Assembly (NCBI GenBank): GCA_947561395.2
Contig: OX387190.1
Coordinates: 37,374,392-37,438,391, forward strand
DNA: 64,000 nucleotides
DNA from: Buxus sempervirens
Taxonomy: Eukaryota; Streptophyta; Magnoliopsida; Buxales; Buxaceae
Direction: 5' to 3'
The position numbers and the translations under genes were made by a program. The notes below the pieces were generated by a model. It saw only the letters and a program-made list of their open reading frames with translations, searched no databases and was not told the DNA's origin. The number at the start of each line of letters is the position of its first letter. Within the stretch, counting starts at the first letter, position 1. Shown here in pieces: positions 15,482 to 29,060 of this stretch.

Positions 15482-16155
15482 TATTTTGGTGGAATGATAA
15501 TAATGACTTTTGTTTGTTTAAGCAAGTTAAAATTGCACTATGATTAAACTAAAAAGAATTTCTTCATACGATTTGCAATTCCATGACTTCGATAATTATG
15601 GGTGGCAACAAAGAAAAGCAGGAGTGAAATTGTCTACTACAAAACCCTATGATAGACATTACAGCCGTCATGAGATGCTATCGCATGTAACATCTCACTA
15701 CCTATATCTTTTCACATTTTTCAATGTGAAAAGATACTTTCACATTAGCTGCGGAGTCTTGCTGCGGATGATTTTGATTTCATCCTACGAAAACAAAGCT
15801 TTGATTTGACAAGTTCGTTTTAGAATGAAGAGGGAAAAAATGAGACACATCATGTCTCTTATAAAAAAATTATGTGGTGTCAGGAAGACAAGCAAATAAC
15901 TTATCAACAGGCTGTTTTGATTGAAATATAAATGCCTGCCGATATACAACGGGGTCTATGTACTCATAAGAAAATTATGACTGATTTACTCTTGTATCTC
16001 TGTGGCATAGCATACTTGGTGTAGATAATTTTGTTACGGAAAAATTAGGGGCGAGCCTTAAAAGTACAAAGAAGGCAAAAACCCTTTCCTTCCCTTCGTG
16101 TGTAAGTCTCAAACACAACTAATTAATTAAAAATGTTGGGGCGTTTTTTTATTTT
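15482..16155. other. Intergenic, no gene recognised
   Basis: AT-rich DNA between two transposons. The 16147-16155 9-mer TTTTATTTT is the left target-site duplication of the large MULE that follows. Confidence 0.5.
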
Positions 16156-16501
16156 GGGTAAATTACAGCAACACCCCCTGAGGTTTGGGAAATGGACACG
16201 CGGTACCCCTGAGGTTTGAAACTGATCACTTATAACCCTCCAGTTTTCTAAAAGAAACGATCGCTACCCCCACCGTTAGTTGAATGAAAACGGTGTTAAG
16301 TTAAATAGTTTTAAACCCGAAACTACCCCTCCTCTCTTAACAGGACCCGCCCTTCCCTCTCTCTCTCTCTAACGAAACCCCCAAAACCCTTTCTTCTTGA
16401 ACCTCGTCGGCGACTGGAGAGGACGCAGCGGCAAGGGGAGACGAAGCACCGGCGAGGGGAGAACTAGCCAACAATCATCAAAGAGGTAAGTCGTTTTATC
16501 T
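16156..16501 (+). repeat. Left terminal inverted repeat of the MULE
   Basis: Starts GGGTAAATTACAGCAACACC. It contains a CT-rich stretch (about 16355-16373) and a GC-richer part (about 16405-16470), and ends just inside a perfect splice-donor consensus (AAGAG|GTAAGT, about 16482-16491). It probably supplies the promoter and first non-coding exon of the GRF gene. An acceptor (TTTTGTAG, about 17150) lies about 20 bp before the GRF ATG. Confidence 0.9.
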
Positions 16502-17172
16502 ATTTCTCCTACAAACTATTTGGTAGTTTGTTTTATCTATGCGCCCAAAACCCTTTCTCCAATGGGGGTTCAAAATCAAAGTAGAACTTTAAGAGTTACT
16601 GCCTGTAAGAACTGTCTCCAATGAGAGTTTAATTCAAAATCAAAGTAGAACTTTAAGAGTTACCGCCTTTAACCAATGAGAGAGTTTAATGGTTTGGGTT
16701 TTCCGTTGTTATCACTTTCCCAAGTCAAAAAAACAAAATTTTGGGTTAATTCGTGACCCAAGTCAGAAAAATGAAATGTTGGGTTAATTAGTGACTTTTG
16801 ATTTAGACTTGGATTTGTGAATTGAATGTCAAAAAAGTAGATTTGGATTTTGGGTTAATTCGTGACTTTTGATTTAGACTTGGATTTGATTCCATGGAAG
16901 TGGGTGTGGGTTTTGTGATTATGGAAAGAGATTGAATGAATAGTAAGAAGGAAATGTTGTCGAGCTTTACCAAGGGTAATAATGAGTTTTAGTAGCATCA
17001 ACACACCAATCAACTTCAAAGAAAAGAAAAGAAACAGTGGAGACACCAAAAAGGAGTAATCATCTTGAATTTCGGTGACATCAAATTGGATACATGGTTT
17101 TCCAAATGCTTTTGTGTTAATCTAGTCATGTTTTGTTATGTGTTTTGTAGGATTTAGTCTATTCAAATTGGC

Positions 17173-17984
17173 ATGGCATCATCTACTGAAAATTGTCCGT
17201 TGGACTTGAAGTATGAAAGCAAAAATTGCTTCTGCAAAAAGAAAGCAATCATAAGAGTATCAGAGACATCTGAACACCCAAATAAATTGTTTTATACATG
17301 TGGAAGAAATGTATCCGTAAGTATCAACTTGACTTTATTTATGTGTTTACTAAATGTCTTATTCGTGCTACTAAGGTCACCATGGACTTGTAGGTTACAA
17401 GTTCTGAAACATCATGTAATTTTTTCCAATGGTGTGAGCCTATAGCACGGTGTGGTGTTAGGCAATTGAAATACGAAAGTCGTGTTTGTAAGTGTAAAAG
17501 GAAAGCCATTATAAGAGTATCTGAGACGTCTGCCAATCCCAATAGACTATTCTATACGTGTGCTACGAAGGTAATGGTGAGTATAGCTATTTTTTTTTTT
17601 ATTAATTTCATTGCTTCCCCTTGTTTTATGAAATTGCTTCCCCTTGTCTTATGAAATTTTACTTTACCATTGTAGGTTTCTACTTCAAAACCATCATGCG
17701 ATTTCTTTGAATGGTGTACTCCTGTACGTAGTCGTGAATTTACAGATGAGATATGCAGTTCTACGAGGACAAATTGCAGTATGAGCATGTCTGAAGATTC
17801 AACTAGAGCATCAATTGACAACCTTGATTCACGAATGACCCAGATTGATGAGAAAATGGAGGATTTGAAATCCCTACAAGAAGAAATAATGGGTCTACGA
17901 GAGGAAATGCGAGAGGAAATGAAAGGGTTGAAATTGCTAATTTTAGTAGCAATTGTACTGCAAGTGATTGTAAATATTTTCTAG
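17173..17984 (+). CDS. Tandem GRF-type zinc-finger protein with coiled coil and C-terminal membrane anchor (MULE-encoded)
   Basis: Exons 17173-17316, 17394-17576 and 17676-17984 are GT-AG and all phase 0, giving 211 aa. There are two GRF zinc-finger units, each split by an intron at the same place. Unit 1 has CFCKKKAIIRV, then LFYTCGRN and CNFFQWC; unit 2 has CKCKRKAIIRV, then LFYTCATK and CDFFEWC. The conserved Cys and the FF.WC signature are present in both. After them come a heptad-like coiled coil (about residues 150-190) and a final hydrophobic segment (LKLLILVAIVLQVIVNIF), consistent with a tail anchor. GRF fingers bind single-stranded DNA in several repair enzymes (known for the family); plant At4g04775-like proteins have this layout. 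The gene converges on the transposase and sits where mudrB sits in MuDR. A helper role in transposition is inference. Confidence 0.85.
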
Positions 17985-18386
17985 TTTTTTTTTTTGGTGG
18001 AAATACATATTTTCTAGATGATATAGTTAAGTAGAAAGTATGCAACTGGGACATACTTGTAATGATTATCCATGAATGTTTTGTGCTAATTAACTCGTTT
18101 AACATGTTTTGTAGTGATTATCCTTGAATGTTTTCCATCTTTGCCAGTTTCGGATATTTAGATTGGATAGTATTTGTCCTTGTATCAGGTCATTATAGTT
18201 AACAAAGGTTATAGTTAATATACTACATGAATTCTTTTGGATGAGTAATATTCTTTTGGCCGACATCATGGTGGTAGTGGCAAAGTGATAAACTAATGTT
18301 CAATTTTTGTTAACATTCTTATGTTACTCGTGGGGACCATTTCATGAGCTTGTTCATCTTTTTTCTACAATCCATAGCTAAATAAA

Positions 18387-19037
18387 ATGACTCTTGAGAA
18401 CTTCCAAGAGTCATTGGCACGGATTGAGCATTTGAATTTGGTGAAGTTCTATGGGTATTTTGAGCACGGAGATGAAAAGATTGTCATCGTGGAGTATGTT
18501 CCCAATGGAACCCTCAGGGAACACTTGGATTGTGAGTTATTTTCTGGCTTCAGCTTCTCTTCTTTATTTGTCTTCTATGCTAGTATTTCATTATTGTAAT
18601 TTCAGAGAGAGTGTGTATCTGTCGTGTGGGTTCTGTGCATGCGAATTTGAGTATGTGGGCAAATGACAAAAGAATAAATGCAGGTATGCATGGAAATATT
18701 CTCGACCTTGCTGCACGGCTTGATATTGCAATCGATGTGGCTCATGCAGTTACCTATCTCCAACATTCTCCTCACTGAAAGCCTTCGAGCAAAGGTGTCT
18801 GGTTTTGGGTTTGCTCGGTTGGGTGCTGACAGTGATTCAGGAGTCACCCATGTGTCCACCCAAGTTAAAGGAACTGCTGGGTATTTGGATCCTGAGTACC
18901 TGAGAACATACCAACTCACTGATAAGAGTGACGTATACTCATTTGGAGTGTTGCTGGTGGAACTTGTTACAGGGAGGCGCCCTATTGAACCCAAAAAATT
19001 AGAACCATCCAATTGGAGAGCTTCACAATGTCTGTAA
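18387..19037 (+). pseudogene. Captured fragment of a calmodulin-binding receptor-like cytoplasmic kinase (CRCK-like)
   Basis: The first exon-like piece (to about 18529, donor GTGAGT) reads RIEHLNLVKFYGYFEHGDEK then VEYVPNGTLREHLD. After an unspliced host intron (about 18530-18682), the second reads [20 protein letters not shown], then [37 protein letters not shown] and [20 protein letters not shown]. These are kinase subdomains V-IX of CRCK-type receptor-like cytoplasmic kinases. Between HAVTYL and NILLTE the catalytic-loop segment (HRD, Lys, Asn) is missing, with loss of frame, and the DFG Asp is replaced. The N-lobe glycine loop and Lys are also absent. Retention of an intron shows capture at the DNA level by the MULE, not via mRNA. 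It is not a functional kinase. Confidence 0.85.
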
Positions 19038-20716
19038 GTAATTTCATCAGTATTAAAGCACTAACATTATATAACAAGCAAAGAGTCTGTATCTAAAGCT
19101 CATCATCCTAAGCACAAACACACTTATCGCTTACCCTGTCGAGCACAAGCAAACAGCCAAATAATAAGGTTTTTTACAGTCGTTCATTTTAAAGGTCCAA
19201 AATAAAGCAAACTAATTTAAATGAAGACCACACGAAACTGGTTTTGCACATCTTCCTCTTCATCATTTTCATCTTCATTACCTGCTTCCAAATCACTGCC
19301 TTCCAAGTGGAATATTTTCTGAAAGTGAAAAGCATGGCTGCATTCAGAAAGGAAATAGACTTCATAGATAAATAACAATCATCAAACCATTTAAATCTCA
19401 CATAGCATTAACCTGATCATAGAATCGGAAGATCCTGATAAGCAGTACCTGCAATACAAGAACCATAAAAATGTATGATTAGCTTACACAAAATAGGAAA
19501 TCTCATGATATGGTTGAATACCAAAACACAAATCAACTTATTATCATCAAGTTCATATGCACTTTGAAACTTCAATATTAAAAGCAAGTTCCTATGTATT
19601 TTTCTTGCTCAAGAAAGACCAAGCTTGGGCATCAGGTAACCCAAGTCCCTAGTAGCTTGTTCGCCAATCCTAAATGGCATGATGAAACCAAAAGCAAATT
19701 TTAAATGCATTCCCATCATCCCATGAACTATTGTCCAAAGTAACAAAATTAACCACTCAACCAAGTGTATTCCCAGAAAAGTAACAAAATTACTTTTGTT
19801 TCTTTTGTCCAAAGTAACAAAAGTAACAAAATTAAACTCATTCCGACAAAGACATAAGTGAAGCAAGTGTATTCCCAGAAAAAGAAGAAGATCATTTCAA
19901 CTAATTCAAGTGGAATATTTCACTTGAATAGCTCCTAAGTCCTAACCACTGGGCGAGCACCATTCAAATAAAAGGGTATGGAATAATAATAAAGTGACCA
20001 AAAGACCATTATAATCTCTACTGTTGCTGATGACAAGTGGGGAATCCAAAATGTACTCTGTTATCAGAAATCATTGAGAATTCAAAAAAACCATTAGCAC
20101 CCAGAAATCAAAAAATTCTCTGTTATCTCTGTTATCAATTCAAAAAATCATTGAGAATTTTCTGTTATAAGAAACAGTGATTAAAGTAATAGCCCAATTT
20201 TACATAGACCCACACCCAGAAATCTAGGAATGCCCGTGTGCCCACAATAAAGTTTCGGGTGCAATAGCCCTTGACTATTTCCTCTTCTAGTACTTAAAGT
20301 AAAGAAATTCCAAATTCAGACCCCAATTGAGCAACACATAAAATCTTGTTTAGGACATATTATAATCCTTTATTTATCATTAGAATCTACAATACTCAGA
20401 AAACCATTTCTACAATTCATGCATGATATATCTAGCAATATTCATTGCACCTCCAAGCATACAACCAAACCTTTCTTTCAAATACCCATGACAGAAACAT
20501 TTTAACAAACATACCAACCAAACCTTTCTTTAAATATGTCAATGTGGTACTCACAAATGAAATCAAATTAAACTTAAACACCCATGACAGAAACATTTTA
20601 ACAAATCTAAACATTCACATATTTAAAGAAATTCAATAAATTCTCTTAATGTGAATATGAAAGCACAATTAATGCAACAAGAAATAGCAGAAGTAGCATC
20701 ATTTCTTACCAGCCAA
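19038..20716. other. MULE interior between the kinase fragment and the transposase
   Basis: AT-rich DNA without an intact gene. On the minus strand, 19227-19334 and 19413-19451 look like two spliced terminal exons of an unidentified host gene (see separate entry). Around 20457-20610 a direct repeat with CATGACAGAAACATTTTAAC occurs twice. Around 19735-19880 there are short repeats of GTAACAAAATTA and GTGTATTCCCAGAAAA. This stretch is probably captured or filler DNA plus the transposase 3' flank. Confidence 0.45.
19227..19451 (-). pseudogene. Possible further captured host-gene fragment (two terminal exons, unidentified)
   Basis: On the minus strand an acceptor TATTGCAG precedes a 39-nt open exon (about 19413-19451) reading VLLIRIFRFYDQ and followed by a GT. 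After a short intron, a CTTTCAG acceptor opens a frame with IFHLEGSDLEAGNEDENDEE and a closing FRVVFI, ending at TAA near 19227. The acidic C-terminus and phase-0 junction look like the last exons of a real gene. I do not recognise the family and the parent is unknown. This could be chance, but two splice-consistent exons in phase make capture plausible. Confidence 0.35.
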
Positions 20717-23225
20717 TCAATTATCTATCCTCTGTGTATCCCCAGAAGTAGAAGCTTTGCTTTTAGCCTTTGTGGGGCCACGCTGGCAAGTCCTTCTATT
20801 ATGACCGAAACCACCACATATGCAACAACGTAGGGTACTTGATCTTCGAATTTGGCTTCCATCCCTTGGTTCATCTATCTCTTTCCTTCTATTTTTCCTA
20901 GGTCTTCCAGTTAGACGACGAAGTCTTGGGGCCATTAAAGGGTCTGTATCAACTGTGGGCCACATCCTGTCATCAGGAATAGGATGTAGCATTTCTCCAT
21001 ATGCCCTCAAGTATGCCTCAACTGTGTAGCAAGGATCACAATGGTTTTCTGGATTATCCCTTCGATGTATCATGCATTGAATTGCATGCTTACACGGTAT
21101 CCCACACAAATCCCACACTAGGCATGTACATGTTCTTCCACCCATCTTTACAATGTATCTGCCAGTGCTGTCAACAACCTCATATTCATCCCCACCAGCG
21201 AATAATATACTACAACTCCTAGCTGCCTTTTTCCTTACTTCCAATGTTGCACAAACTCTTGGAGGTACTAATGTAGTCCAAGTAGATGCAGTTTGATGCC
21301 TTTTCTGGATCTTTACCATCCACCTTGTCCTTATACCATCCAATAAAGCTAGAATAGGCTTCTCCCTTAGATCTCCAATCCATTGATTAAAAGACTCTGA
21401 CAAATTGTTTGTTACGTGATCATTTCTCACACGCTTGTCAAATGCATGCCGTGACCAAGTCTCCACGGGGATCTCCTTCAGCCAATTATATGCAGCAAGT
21501 GATGCATTCTTCATCCGCTCCATTGCATCATTGAAATCATACACGTTGTATGCTCTGACTGCTGCCCAAAACAAATTCTTAAGCAACAGCCCCTTATGAA
21601 GTGTTTTGAAGTTACTGTACATGTGCCTCGCACAGTAACGTTGATTAACATGGGGTAGCACTTCTCCAATTGCCTTCAGTATACCCTACATGCAAACAAA
21701 AGGATATATATGTTGATTATCGATATATTATAATTTACTTCCAAAAAATTAGTGCTTAAATTGTAGTAGTTACCTTTTGTCTATCAGTAATGAGTGTCCA
21801 TGCTCGATCCACTACACCAATGACGACATAGAGGTTCTGCAGGAAAAATGACCAACTATAATATGTTTCTGCTTCCACCACTGCATATGCAACAGGAAAT
21901 AAACCTCCGTTGCCATCCAAAGCAACTGCAGATAATAACACACCTCCATATGGACCCTTCAAATGACAACCGTCTAATCCAATGAAGGGTCGACACCCAT
22001 GAAGTAATCCTAACCTCATCGCTGCAAAGCTAATAAATATCCTCTTGAACATGGAAGCTGAAGATATATCGAGCCTCTCTGACTCAATCTTTACCAAACT
22101 CCCAGGGTTGGTAGCTCTAATGATCTCAGCATATCTCCATAGAAGCCCATACGATAGTCCATGACTTCCTTCTACTACCTCAATAGCTTTCCGCCTTGCT
22201 CTCCTCAACTGCATATTACTAGGCTCAATACCATACTTACTTTGGACCATCTCTCTAATGGTTGAAATTTGAACCTTCGGATTTGCACGCACTTGTGGGA
22301 GAATCTTTTTTGATATCCATCTAGAGTTAGCTTCCACATTATTATGGACACGTGTGCATGTGTGTTCTGGCTGAAAAGTCTTGATCATGTACGTCGTCCC
22401 ATCGGGTTTCGTGGATGCATGCAATCTCCACGTGCAACCCGCAACTGCACACCCAACTGTAACCCTTTTCTTTTCATTCTTAATCCTCTTCAAATTAAAA
22501 CCCTCCCTAATTGCAAATTCTGCCAATGCTCTTCTAAATTCATGGATGTTGCTAAATTGCATACCTCTTTCAAATTTGGGGTCATCCATTCCATGTTCAG
22601 CATCAAATTCAATGCCATCACTTTCACTATCCTCATCAGAATCATATGGGCTTCGGTAATCAGGATCAGACTCACAATTTGATAGATGATCACCTCCTTC
22701 TTCACTGCCCTCAGCTCCTTCTTCATTGCCCTCAACTCCTTCTTCACTATCCTCAGCTACATCAACCTCGGGTGACTCAACCACCTCTTCTTCACTTTCT
22801 TCTTCTTCTCCTTCATTGTCACTGATTAAAATTTCTTCATTTATCCAATCCTCATCTTCAGTTGATTCTGTTGCTTCTGCACCTCCTCCTTGCTCATATC
22901 TAGATCTACTGCCAGTGAAGCCCGAGGATGCTGCATTATCACTTCGCATCTGTGACAGCACGGGTGTCTCTTCTTCAATTAATTCTACGTATATCTCCTT
23001 CAATCCTCTATACAGTGAAAACATGTGCATGAGAGCAGCATCACCATCAACAACACTAAAATTCCGGGTGCCAGGTATACGGTATTTAATGGTTATGCAA
23101 TTTCCTGGACGAACACCACCTAGTTCCGCTGCATCGTTCGTCAAATCAATGAAACTATACCTATCCTCATCCACACAATCAATGTGCTCGACCCCCCTTG
23201 AGTGATGAACTGCAATTGTATACAT
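20717..23225 (-). CDS. MuDR-type Mutator-like transposase (2 exons, 806 aa)
   Basis: Exons 21774-23225 and 20717-21685 (minus strand) are joined across an 88-bp GT-AG intron, phase 0. Domains in order: a PB1-like N-terminus (about 1-95); an acidic linker (about 125-215); a plant MuDR DNA-binding zinc motif with VGCAVAGCTW and a downstream HTC (about 225-305); the MULE catalytic core with D418 in GLDGCHLKGPYGG, D481 in LITDRQKG and a likely third acidic residue E540 in FNDAMERMK; a SWIM zinc finger (CTCLVWDLCGIPCKH); and a C-terminal CCHC knuckle (CCICGGFGHNRRTC). No frameshift or stop interrupts it, and the length suits the family. It catalyses cut-and-paste transposition in the nucleus, binding the TIRs. 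It reads inward from the right TIR, with a PPR fragment between. The intact frame and near-identical TIRs suggest an autonomous element. Confidence 0.93.
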
Positions 23226-23544
23226 CTTCTATGCTGTACGAAAATGATTTAAAATCAATGAAACTATACCTATACATTCTACGGCATGAACGAAGTCTAA
23301 TAATCACATGAACATACATGTAAGTGAGACAAGCATTATCAAGTCTTTGTTATAATGGAGGAAATAAAAATACATTATCAAGTGTTTGTCTACGGCATCC
23401 ATTCTACCCAATAAACCGCATGGTTGGTGATTTCAGATTCTTTGTTTGGTTTCAGATTCTTTCTACGAATCTGAAACCAGAACCTCCAACAAAAATTGTT
23501 TAGTCTAAAAGCTTGGTCGAAGCTTTTAGACAATGCTTGTTTAA

Positions 23545-23900
23545 AAGCTTGTTTCCACGCTTTATAATGCTTCCCAAAACAGAGCTTCCCAAAACAGAGA
23601 AACCCAAGTCTACACGACCCAAATGGCTCAAACAATTGACGAATATGTTCATGGTATATGCATTGGATTCAATTCCTAAAGAAAGCAACTCTTTACACAT
23701 ATAAAAGACATGGGTATACTGTTTCGTCTTGGAGAGGGCAGTCAATAGTCGGTTAAAATAGTAAATTGAGGGCATCGGTCGCATTCAAGCCATAGAAGGG
23801 AAGAAGTCCAAAGCTTCATCTACCCTAACATTTCCTGATTTACATCGATCAATAAGGGATTTCAACAACCGGGTTCGACCATTGGGAGTAACAGGAGAAG
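23545..23900 (-). pseudogene. Captured fragment of a P-class pentatricopeptide repeat (PPR) gene
   Basis: The minus-strand translation reads RTRLLKSLIDRCKSG, VDEALDFFPSM, then an in-frame TGA, then MRPMPSIYYFNRLLTALSKT, SLGIESNAYTMNIFVNCLSH and LGRVDLGFSVLG. This is the N-terminal part of a plant mitochondrial-type P-class PPR protein: a two-helix 35-residue repeat with the LGI.....T.N ILINC hallmark. A 15-bp tandem duplication (23570-23599) repeats the SVLG segment, and the frame then decays. PPR proteins bind organellar RNA, but this piece has no targeting peptide, few repeats and a stop, so it is non-functional. It lies between the right TIR and the transposase ATG, in the same orientation, so it would be part of the transposase 5' leader or its intron. 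Confidence 0.8.
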
Positions 23901-24030
23901 GGGGATCATCATAAGCCTGGGGTTCTTCGCTATCAACGATTTAGATAAAACGACGGTTCTTGAACTACCAAACCATTCTTCTTCGTTGAGGTACGAGAAA
24001 ACCCTAGGTTCAAACCCTAGGTGACGAAAG

Positions 24031-24376
24031 AGATAAAACGACTTACCTCTTTGATGATTGTTGGCTAGTTCTCCCCTCGCCGGTGCTTCGTCTCCCCTTG
24101 CCGCTGCGTCCTCTCCAGTCGCCGACGAGGTTCAAGAAGAAAGGGTTTTGGGGGTTTCGTTAGAGAGAGAGAGAGGGAAGGGCGGGTCCTATTAAGAGAG
24201 GAGGGGTAGTTTCGGGTTTAAAACTATTTAACTTAACACCGTTTTCATTCAACTAACGGTGGGGGTAGCGATCGTTTCTTTTAGAAAACTGGAGGGTTAT
24301 AAGTGATGAGTTTCAAACCTCAGGGGTACCGCGTGTCCATTTCCCAAACCTCAGGGGGTGTTGCTGTAATTTACCC
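24031..24376 (-). repeat. Right terminal inverted repeat of the MULE
   Basis: The reverse complement of 16156-16501, with two differences seen by eye (near 24306 and 24191). Its inner end carries the same donor consensus AAGAG|GTAAGT reading toward the transposase. It is the likely promoter and leader exon of the transposase transcript. The adjoining 24377-24385 TTTTATTTT is the right copy of the target duplication. Confidence 0.9.
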
Positions 24377-24385
24377 TTTTATTTT

Positions 24386-25131: not shown

Positions 25132-26600
<1,469 letters not shown>

Positions 26601-26650
26601 AGCTCTTGAATGAGTTGCAAAGGTGAGAGTCGATCTGAGATTATTTATGG

Positions 26651-29060
26651 GCGAAAGCTGGGGGCAGATCCAAGTAATTTGGTTGGTTAAAGCTTAGAAA
26701 ATGGAAAGCCCACTAGTTTTAGACTAATGAAATTGAAGTCAGCGATCCAAGACATGATCATCAAATGAGCAAATGGAAATATCTCTGATTAAAACCTTGT
26801 CACTTGGGAAACAAGGAAAGGGGAATGAATATGAAAATATAGAAGTCGGATGTAGTGTTTTGGGCTGGTGGGGATCTACGAAGAAAGGACATGCATTGTT
26901 AAAAAGATAAAATGCACTGAGAGAAATATATATGTATTCGGCATGTCATGACCTAATTATGAAAGAGAGAGAATGAAAAAAGCAATCCAAAATGTGATAA
27001 ACAGCACCACATGTCACTATGTCTGGTGGTTCGAACCTTCAACAAATCAAAGAGAGTTGTCATGCTGGCGGTTGTCTCCCTAGATTACATATGAATTTCA
27101 ACTAAAAACAAAAGAGTATAAAACATCAAAGGAGAGATGAATATTGTTGACTTTAACCACCAAGTCACACTCATGAATGACATGGTAAAGATAACTAGTA
27201 ATTTAACTAGTAAAAATGTTGGAAGAGAACTGTTCATTTTTGGGCCCCTCGAGTCCCTGGCAGAGAATGAAAACTCTAATTGACCTTGAGAAGGCCTGAA
27301 ATCTTACCAATTGGTCTGAGGACATCTCTAATTAATAGATTCAGAGCATGGAAAAACCCTTGAAAACCCCTCCCTCCCTGGAATGATCAAAACAATGTTG
27401 GGACTCAAATCAATAAAATCAGTTAGTTGCCAGGACTACCATTTTTGCCGAGCAAATCCAATTTCTTGGCAAATAATCTAGTCTTGGTAGAATAAATTTC
27501 ACAAATTCCGACAATATTTAGCATTTCTTTTTTTTGCCATTTTGCATTGTTCCTAATAGAATTTATTATAGAACACCATTCCAATACCATGTAAGAACAC
27601 CGTTCCTACTAAAAGCTCAAGTTAATAGTAGGGGTGAACTTTATATATTTAATATATTCCTTAAAATTTATTTGGCAAATGTAATATCATCTTGGCATAC
27701 CTATATTCGGCATATCGATGACCATTAAAGACCTTGGAATGGCCGTAGAATATTCTTGAAAACCATAATTTTATAGTTTTGGACCTCATCTAACAATTCT
27801 GTAGATTTCAACCTTGCAGAGCTTCTGACATAACCTATTATACTAAGAAGGAGACCTCATCTAAATTAATTGGCAAATCAATAATTATTTTGGATTTTCG
27901 GAGTAGTAGTTATCTCAAAGTCCAACATGCCGCCTCCTTCTTCCTCATCTTGTCCTTCTTGTTCTTGTTCTTCTTGTGCTTCTTACTATCGCAACTGGTT
28001 TTCCTCTGTCCACACTTTATCATCTTCATCTTCTTCTAACATTAGCCACCTTACAAAGCAAAGAACCTGATCGGAAGAAGATCAGGTGCCCTCTTATTGT
28101 CCAAAACGCTTTTACCAACTTATGTGTCCTTTTCTTCTGTTAATTCCTTTTATCTTCCTTCTTCTCTTACCTTTTCTCCATCTATATATCTCTTCAATTA
28201 TTTTTCATAACCAATTCACTTAGCAAACAATATGACGGAAAGAGATGGCCTCATTCTCCCGCGTTTTCCATGAAGAGGAAGCGTGATCAAGCCCCCTTTC
28301 TTTCAGTTCAAGAGTTCAAGCCATCTCCATAGGGCAGTTCAAGGAAGAGTTAACTAATTTTATCTTTTTTATTACTGGCAATGTAAGTAAGCAACCATGA
28401 CGTATGAATAACATACATGTAAGTGAAACAGTGGTATAAATCCTTCCTTAATTTTGCTTTTCCTGTTTGTTAATTCAGATTTTTCCTTTGATTTGATGTA
28501 CATTATGATTCATATATATTTTCCCTTAAATTTGTTTCTTCGAGGCTTGTAAACATATAAAAACAGGTTAATCCTAAATTTATAAGTTCTAGGGCTTCTA
28601 AACATTTTTGGCTAGAATAAGTAATTTTCAGTGAAAAAAAAAAGGATTGGAGAAGTCAAGAAGAGTTATACAATGTTATTCATAAAAGATTTAAACCCCA
28701 ACCTCAGTGCAGATATGGAGCTTCAAATATAATGTCCCCAGTCCACCCCGCAATAAGGCGATTCATAGAATATCTTGAAAGTTCGTTCTTAGCTTCCATC
28801 CGAACGCTGATAGACCGGTTGAAGGGATGACTCCAGAGCCATGTTGCGTAATGCTTTGATGGAAAGCGAAAGCTCAATTCAATTATCAGATTGATCAACT
28901 CAACAAGCCAGATGAACGTTCATAAGCAAAGCCTAGACAGAGGCCTAGCACAATAGCACATCCATGTACAAAAGAAGAATCAAAAGGAGCAGAGGAAAGT
29001 CTATAGTTAATTTATACGTTTTCTTGACCTAAAGGAGAGAGCGGGGGAAGTTTTGATCTT
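26651..29060. other. Intergenic with a TRIM LTR fragment
   Basis: 2.4 kb between the peroxidase promoter and a small unknown gene. At 27591-27665, in reverse orientation, is a piece (CACCGTTCCTACTAAAAGCT, then AATATATTCCTTAA) of the same miniature LTR family clustered at 59970-60577. Around 27925-28040 the sequence is CTT-rich without a convincing frame. No other gene, RNA or intact transposon was seen. Confidence 0.5.

Follow-up and report, generated by a model that had tools for sequence, protein, structure and literature searches.

A GRF zinc-finger gene as an exchangeable second gene of MULEs in Buxus sempervirens

A complete MULE with two convergent genes

The stretch of the Buxus sempervirens genome analysed here (the window, 64,000 nucleotides) holds a complete MULE in which a spliced gene for a protein with two GRF zinc fingers faces the transposase gene from the opposite end, with a captured kinase fragment between the two. 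By position in the window, the features are as follows.

16147..16155, unstranded: left target-site duplication TTTTATTTT, an identical 9-bp copy
16156..24376, unstranded: complete MULE, 8,221 bp, called from TIRs, 9-bp duplication, length and transposase domains
16156..16506, + strand: left TIR, 351 nt, from repeat detection and alignment
16486..17150, + strand: intron predicted in the 5'UTR of the GRF gene, with its GTAAGT donor within the TIR and its acceptor shortly before the ATG, placed by eye
17173..17316, + strand: GRF gene, first exon, with the start codon and the front half of finger 1, in-frame join, same model in sister copies
17394..17576, + strand: GRF gene, second exon, with the rear half of finger 1 and the front half of finger 2, in-frame join, at least 150 genome matches
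17676..17984, + strand: GRF gene, third exon, with the rear half of finger 2 followed by linker, coil, tail and stop, in-frame join, 101 genome matches
17787..17924, + strand: predicted coiled-coil stalk, residues 147-192, from the sequence pattern and a homologue modelled as one long helix
17928..17978, + strand: hydrophobic tail, residues 194-210, predicted membrane anchor (hydropathy 2.63, dN/dS 0.30)
18380..19040, + strand: captured host kinase fragment, a passenger (Pfam Pkinase on a 119-aa ORF, source at C19)
20717..21685, - strand: transposase exon 2 (SWIM), ORF and Pfam, splice site by eye
21774..23225, - strand: transposase exon 1, coding for the MuDR DNA-binding and MULE catalytic domains, ORF and Pfam, splice site by eye
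23234..24047, - strand: intron predicted in the 5'UTR of the transposase gene, with its donor within the right TIR, by eye
24026..24376, - strand: right TIR, 351 nt, from repeat detection and alignment
24377..24385, unstranded: right target-site duplication TTTTATTTT, an identical 9-bp copy

The long TIRs, the 9-bp target duplication and the MuDR/MULE domains of the transposase place the element among the MULEs. The TIRs are 99% complementary by alignment, and the TTTTATTTT flanks agree at 9 of 9 bp, at a low-complexity site where the duplication is hence weak evidence alone. Among the five related elements, out of eight, for which both ends are covered, the target duplication is 9/9 bp in four and 8/9 in one. 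The two-exon transposase runs from 23225 to 20717 on the - strand, opposite to the GRF gene, and matches PF03108 (1.6e-16), PF10551 (7.4e-8) and SWIM (5.8e-7); having a transposase gene with open exons, the element is not a Pack-MULE. Short direct repeats with a 21-base spacing (22690-22811) fall within the transposase gene, where it codes for an acidic stretch. Beside the right TIR, on the - strand at 25132-26693, are ORFs whose motifs resemble those of a class III peroxidase gene.

The GRF gene (17173-17984, + strand) has three exons with GT-AG borders that join in frame to a product of 211 aa. The GRF zinc finger family PF06839 matches this protein in two stretches (E 4.4e-15; score 56 bits, cut-off 25.9) and is the only Pfam family to exceed its cut-off; PF05325 (DUF730) aligns with residues 79-176 at E 1.1e-4, under its own cut-off. 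Two 92-nt repeats within the gene are 73% alike, and the tandem finger would fit an internal duplication. The Pfam match, the splice structure and the many copies rule out a chance ORF. Among solved structures the best match is the tandem GRF of NEIL3 (7omk and 7jl5; weak, E 0.0067 and 0.01), which shares with the window protein two GRF zinc ribbons in tandem but is part of a repair enzyme.

The highest 17-residue hydropathy window is residues 194-210 (Kyte-Doolittle scale), which end one residue short of the C-terminus; by composition only, the window protein has the single, C-terminal hydrophobic segment of a tail-anchored protein. The exon join, the Pfam search and the TIRs bear out the earlier note on this DNA, which had described a spliced gene inside the element, convergent with the transposase and encoding two GRF fingers, and the hydropathy profile confirms the C-terminal hydrophobic segment that it had pointed out. 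The coiled coil of the same note holds as a prediction, made from the sequence pattern and the homologue model.

At their inner edges both TIRs have an identical splice donor, GAG/GTAAGTCG, and acceptors sit shortly before the ATGs of both the GRF gene and the transposase gene. In elements with the second type of GRF gene described below (type B), GTAAGTC is found in the left TIR stretch of 7/8. Each TIR is thereby predicted to supply a 5'UTR exon: both genes would be transcribed from their own TIR, with the first exon inside it, and the two products would be made together. In maize MuDR, promoter activity comes from the TIRs, and insertion depends on mudrB (available text of PMC8224964). Given the shared TIR donor and the acceptors before both ATGs, we predict common control of the two genes in the window element, as in MuDR.

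Recurrence, passenger control and selection

We searched the whole genome (676.5 Mb). The window transposase exon gave at least 94 matches (87 of 609 candidates scored), merging to 85 loci, and a second, distant transposase used as query gave at least 136 matches (93 of 571 scored) and ten further loci. For the GRF gene, the exon 2 search returned at least 150 matches (150 of 260 candidates scored), the exon 3 search 101 (143 of 143) and the Pfam GRF family search at least 141 (150 of 573).

A GRF match lies downstream of the transposase in at least 45 of the 85 loci of the window-exon search, and all 45 are convergent. With the ten further loci and the exon 3 matches added, the total is 95 transposase loci, at least 50 of which are followed by a GRF match no more than 14 kb downstream, against a chance expectation of 0.5; among the matches listed, 1 of the 95 has one upstream. 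The figure of 50 is a lower bound, since scoring covered 87 of 609 candidates in one transposase search and 93 of 571 in the other. Like mudrB, the GRF gene is convergent with the transposase and sits at the opposite end of the element, and this orientation holds for 50/50 of the downstream matches. Among the matches listed, 45 of the 95 loci have none downstream, yet three of four such loci that we inspected have a GRF gene or part of one. Two of these (L059 and L060, transposase 63% identical) have a convergent tandem GRF gene of another type, and the third (L062, 74%) has GRF exon 3 with the front part not adjoining; in the fourth (L061, 50%) we sought a GRF gene on inspection and found none. 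At about 3100-4500 of L062, exon 3 is intact and is separated from the front-exon site by a 153-aa ORF, which by its motif resembles a piece of a Harbinger-type nuclease; with this ORF in between, an insertion is probable.

In the reverse direction, 37 of 133 window-type GRF loci have a transposase within 14 kb 3' among the window-exon matches listed, all 37 convergent, and the remaining 96 have no such transposase within that distance among the same matches. Many of these 96 could be orphans, lie in elements that escape the search, or be host genes.

The seven nearest sisters, whose transposase exon is 98-100% identical, all keep the GRF gene (97-100% identical in exon 2, 96-100% in exon 3). 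The absence from sister elements that the earlier note had named as counting against its proposal is thus not what these seven sisters show. The kinase fragment provides an internal control. Its likely host source, at C19:5243702-5244456, matches it in two blocks at 99-100% identity. The fragment occurs in only 4/7 of the sisters, all seven of which have the GRF gene; in the other three the match covers just the first 38 query bases, plus the last 54 in one, mostly outside the kinase blocks. Its presence in four of seven and its near-identical source mark the kinase piece as a recent and variable passenger and the GRF gene as the constant part; within the window element, passenger-like behaviour is confined to the kinase piece. 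In the copy on C8 the kinase blocks have a 163-base spacing as in the source, and the window copy is without that spacing. A one-off capture of the GRF gene from the host is ruled out by the recurrence together with the kinase control. The claim that the gene is element-encoded and in the mudrB position, not a chance passenger, is strongly supported by the 50 of 95 loci, all convergent.

All 15 window-type copies that we opened (L039-L053) fit the three-exon model. Fourteen are stop-free, and 13 also have all splice sites intact; the copy with a stop is L053, and in L048 the acceptor preceding exon 2 is altered. Comparing eight window-like copies with eight of the 73% group (Nei-Gojobori, all 64 pairs, which are non-independent), we obtained a GRF dN/dS of 0.50 overall, with 0.76 for finger 1, 0.14 for finger 2, 1.9 for the linker, 0.55 for the coil and 0.30 for the tail; on these values finger 1 and the linker look relaxed. 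When group majorities were taken (seven plus seven copies, L045 and L053 excluded) and each difference counted once, there were 34.5 changes over 501 nonsynonymous sites versus 17.5 over 132 synonymous sites (Fisher p 0.019). Removing the N-terminus and linker gives p 0.003, an optimistic value since the linker was dropped after its speed was seen. Within the groups dN/dS is 0.62 and 0.74, and for exon 3 alone, in one pair, it is not significant (p 0.14). The transposase gives 0.15-0.33 in 8/9 comparisons and 0.55 in the ninth, which has six differences, and the constraint is weaker on the GRF gene than on the transposase. These comparisons point to purifying selection on the GRF gene at a dN/dS of about 0.5, and the frame is kept in most copies opened; the relaxed selection with stops that would have told against the earlier proposal was not found.

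These results bear on the alternative that a plant GRF family gene has been captured repeatedly by MULEs, like the pieces in Pack-MULEs, and is of no use to the element. The kinase fragment shows that MULE capture of host DNA has occurred in this very element; GRF-coil-tail proteins exist in other plants, there are two types of GRF gene (both described below), and the 96 of 133 window-type GRF loci without a nearby transposase among the matches listed also speak for it. We nonetheless consider repeated capture quite unlikely, given the same side and convergent orientation in 50/50 loci, retention in 7/7 sisters versus 4/7 for a true passenger, and introns and frames kept under purifying selection.

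Two types of GRF gene and their exchange

The window gene belongs to type A, which comprises one or two GRFs, a coil and a predicted tail anchor and is found beside transposases of 47-100% identity. At the distant end of this range, the genes of L054 and L055 (transposase 55-58%) and of L056-L058 (47-49%) encode one GRF finger along with a helical region and a hydrophobic tail; L054 is frame-shifted, and L055 and L057 have a stop in exon 3. A protein database search with the window protein alone gave no match, and a four-row profile search of protein databases gave 16 homologues (P0121-P0136), of which 12 were read and nine measured. These plant GRF-type proteins, Trifolium and Telopea proteins with the GRF-coil-tail layout among them, resemble the window protein in having a GRF finger, a long helical region and, in most, a hydrophobic C-terminus, but most have one finger where the window protein has two. 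By similarity, the Telopea and Trifolium homologues indicate that the type A layout, tail included, is older than these elements, and the tail was probably inherited with the gene family.

The tail keeps its hydrophobicity, although its residues vary among type A sequences. In 14/14 sequences (five type A genes of the Buxus genome and nine plant or metagenome homologues, P0136 being outside the set) the 17-residue hydropathy is 2.2-3.4, at most nine residues from the C-terminus; P0128 and P0132 stop before the tail in the alignment. In a model of the Telopea homologue P0125 (mean pLDDT 70.9; block pLDDT 76-96 for the helix and 51-69 for the finger), a small ribbon is followed by one helix, residues 73-141, that runs into the tail. 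This continuous helix across stalk and tail would suit a hydrophobic C-terminus that is the buried end of a multimerising helical bundle rather than a membrane anchor, as would the use by related elements of type B, in which no such tail was seen. A hydropathy of 2.2-3.4 kept in all 14 sequences while the residues vary is, however, what is expected of a membrane span, and we hold the buried bundle end to be unlikely. The membrane anchor put forward in the earlier note is borne out only in part: type A keeps the hydrophobic tail, but no such tail was seen beside the transposases of about 90% identity.

Those transposases (n=8; dS 0.15 and 0.16 in the two exons) are accompanied by a GRF match that is only 24-32% identical to the window protein. 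Translation of two of them (E21 and E25) defines type B as two GRF fingers and a charged C-terminal part. The E25 protein reaches a maximum hydropathy of 1.09, versus 2.63 in the window protein, and has no tail-like segment, though a further exon is possible. Outside the transposase gene, the window element and three of the 90% elements align only at the TIR ends (70-95 bp). The matched TIR length among E21-E28 ranges from 477 to 1012 nt despite near-alike transposases (E25 is excluded, its right end lying beyond the sequence analysed).

Over a span that begins some 20 bases ahead of the ATG and ends at the stop, the E25 type B gene is 87-91% DNA-identical to those of L005, L007-L014, L016-L020; pieces of it occur in L015 and E01, and L006 is more distant (75-81%). 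Introns of this gene match about as closely as its exons do: between L014 and E25 the introns are 95% and 89% identical and the exons 90-94%, and the flanks are 67-79% in a forced alignment. At the edge of L010, a FAR1-type MULE transposase (PF03101, PF10551) is convergent with type B; of its gene, only the DNA for the last 60 residues recurs, in five of the other loci. In E01 (L037+L001+L038) the transposase is 24-31% identical to that of the window, and the type B gene is on the same strand. Such identity, introns included, beside very different transposases makes it appear that one GRF gene moved between elements as DNA. L009-L020 form a repeat family with a type B gene, and a Transposase_32 ORF (PF20167) is present in L012, L013, L014, L017 and L019. 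The type B gene of E01, at about 3544 of the joined stretch, is without intron 2 of the E25 gene.

Within type A, the window/L062 pair has a dS of 0.22 for GRF exon 3 versus 0.48 for the transposase, from few sites, a hint of exchange in this type too. Strict co-inheritance of the GRF gene with the transposase is rejected as the full story, type B being found beside transposases of about 90% identity. As type B elements have spread with no such tail seen, a tether seems dispensable for the element; in type A the tail may serve location or stability.

A possible helper function among known second genes

Borne by the element and exchangeable, the GRF gene occupies the mudrB position as a second gene. 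GRF ribbons bind single-stranded DNA in repair enzymes, and MULE insertion leaves short gaps, of 9 nt here by the length of the duplication. For these reasons, and in view of the NEIL3 match, we favour a helper that holds single-stranded DNA during insertion or gap repair. Our main reading is that the gene is a stably kept second gene of a MULE lineage whose protein is likely a single-stranded-DNA-binding transposition helper, to which we assign a probability of about 0.5. Its ribbons would hold single-stranded DNA at excised ends or at the 9-nt insertion gaps, and the helical stalk would make the protein a multimer. The type A tail would put it on a membrane, for example the endoplasmic reticulum or the nuclear envelope, and the type B protein would fill the same role in soluble form. 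In function, mudrB of maize MuDR would be the analogue. Counted against a helper are the same-strand orientation in E01, the 45 of 95 transposase loci without a GRF match and the 96 of 133 window-type GRF loci without a nearby transposase among the matches listed, and the weaker selection than on the transposase. The fuller version, in which GRF-stalk-tail proteins, widespread in plants, are accessory proteins of a large MULE group, exchanged as cassettes and acting as an endoplasmic-reticulum or nuclear-envelope tether with single-stranded DNA held for insertion, is in our judgement decidedly doubtful.

The element-borne gene might instead encode an anti-silencing or expression factor, VANC-like, rather than an insertion helper. 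VANDAL elements do have an anti-silencing second gene (available text of PMC6446971), and fast exchange of the gene between elements would suit an arms race with the host. Against this, conservation is highest in finger 2 (dN/dS 0.14), as if its nucleic-acid target were fixed; as for the mudrB-like position, it is an analogy only, either way. We rate an anti-silencing role as unlikely and retain the helper as the preferred reading.

The earlier note describes mudrB as different in sequence, and we know of no GRF finger or tail in MURB. The likeness to mudrB lies in the arrangement, in which a second gene next to the other TIR runs towards the transposase gene (available text of PMC8224964 and PMC6446971). 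ORFR of the Abermu MULEs is likewise opposite to the transposase and between it and a TIR; it is divergent or absent among related elements whose transposase is conserved, and it has no similarity to MURB. The available text on it mentions no GRF domain, and the likeness is by description only (PMC9168764). VANB/VANC of VANDAL and the antisense PMD ORFs are also extra protein genes of plant MULEs, but of other protein families (available text of PMC6446971). In the available parts of the sources, the second genes described in MULEs are mudrB, MutB, VANB/VANC, the PMD ORFs and Abermu ORFR (PMC6446971, PMC9168764); the main text of PMC6446971 has 0 occurrences of 'grf'. A literature search over titles and the openings of abstracts, with subscription journals mostly outside its coverage, found no link between GRF fingers and MULEs. 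As GRF is absent among those described, the GRF second gene would be a new variation on the known second genes of MULEs.

A known zinc ribbon in the mudrB position offers a testable mechanism, and elements that share nearly the same transposase and differ in GRF gene type are natural matched pairs for experiments. Plant 'GRF-type' genes occur in crop trait-mapping papers, as far as their available text goes, and part of these unnamed plant 'GRF-type' genes could be explained as transposon genes.
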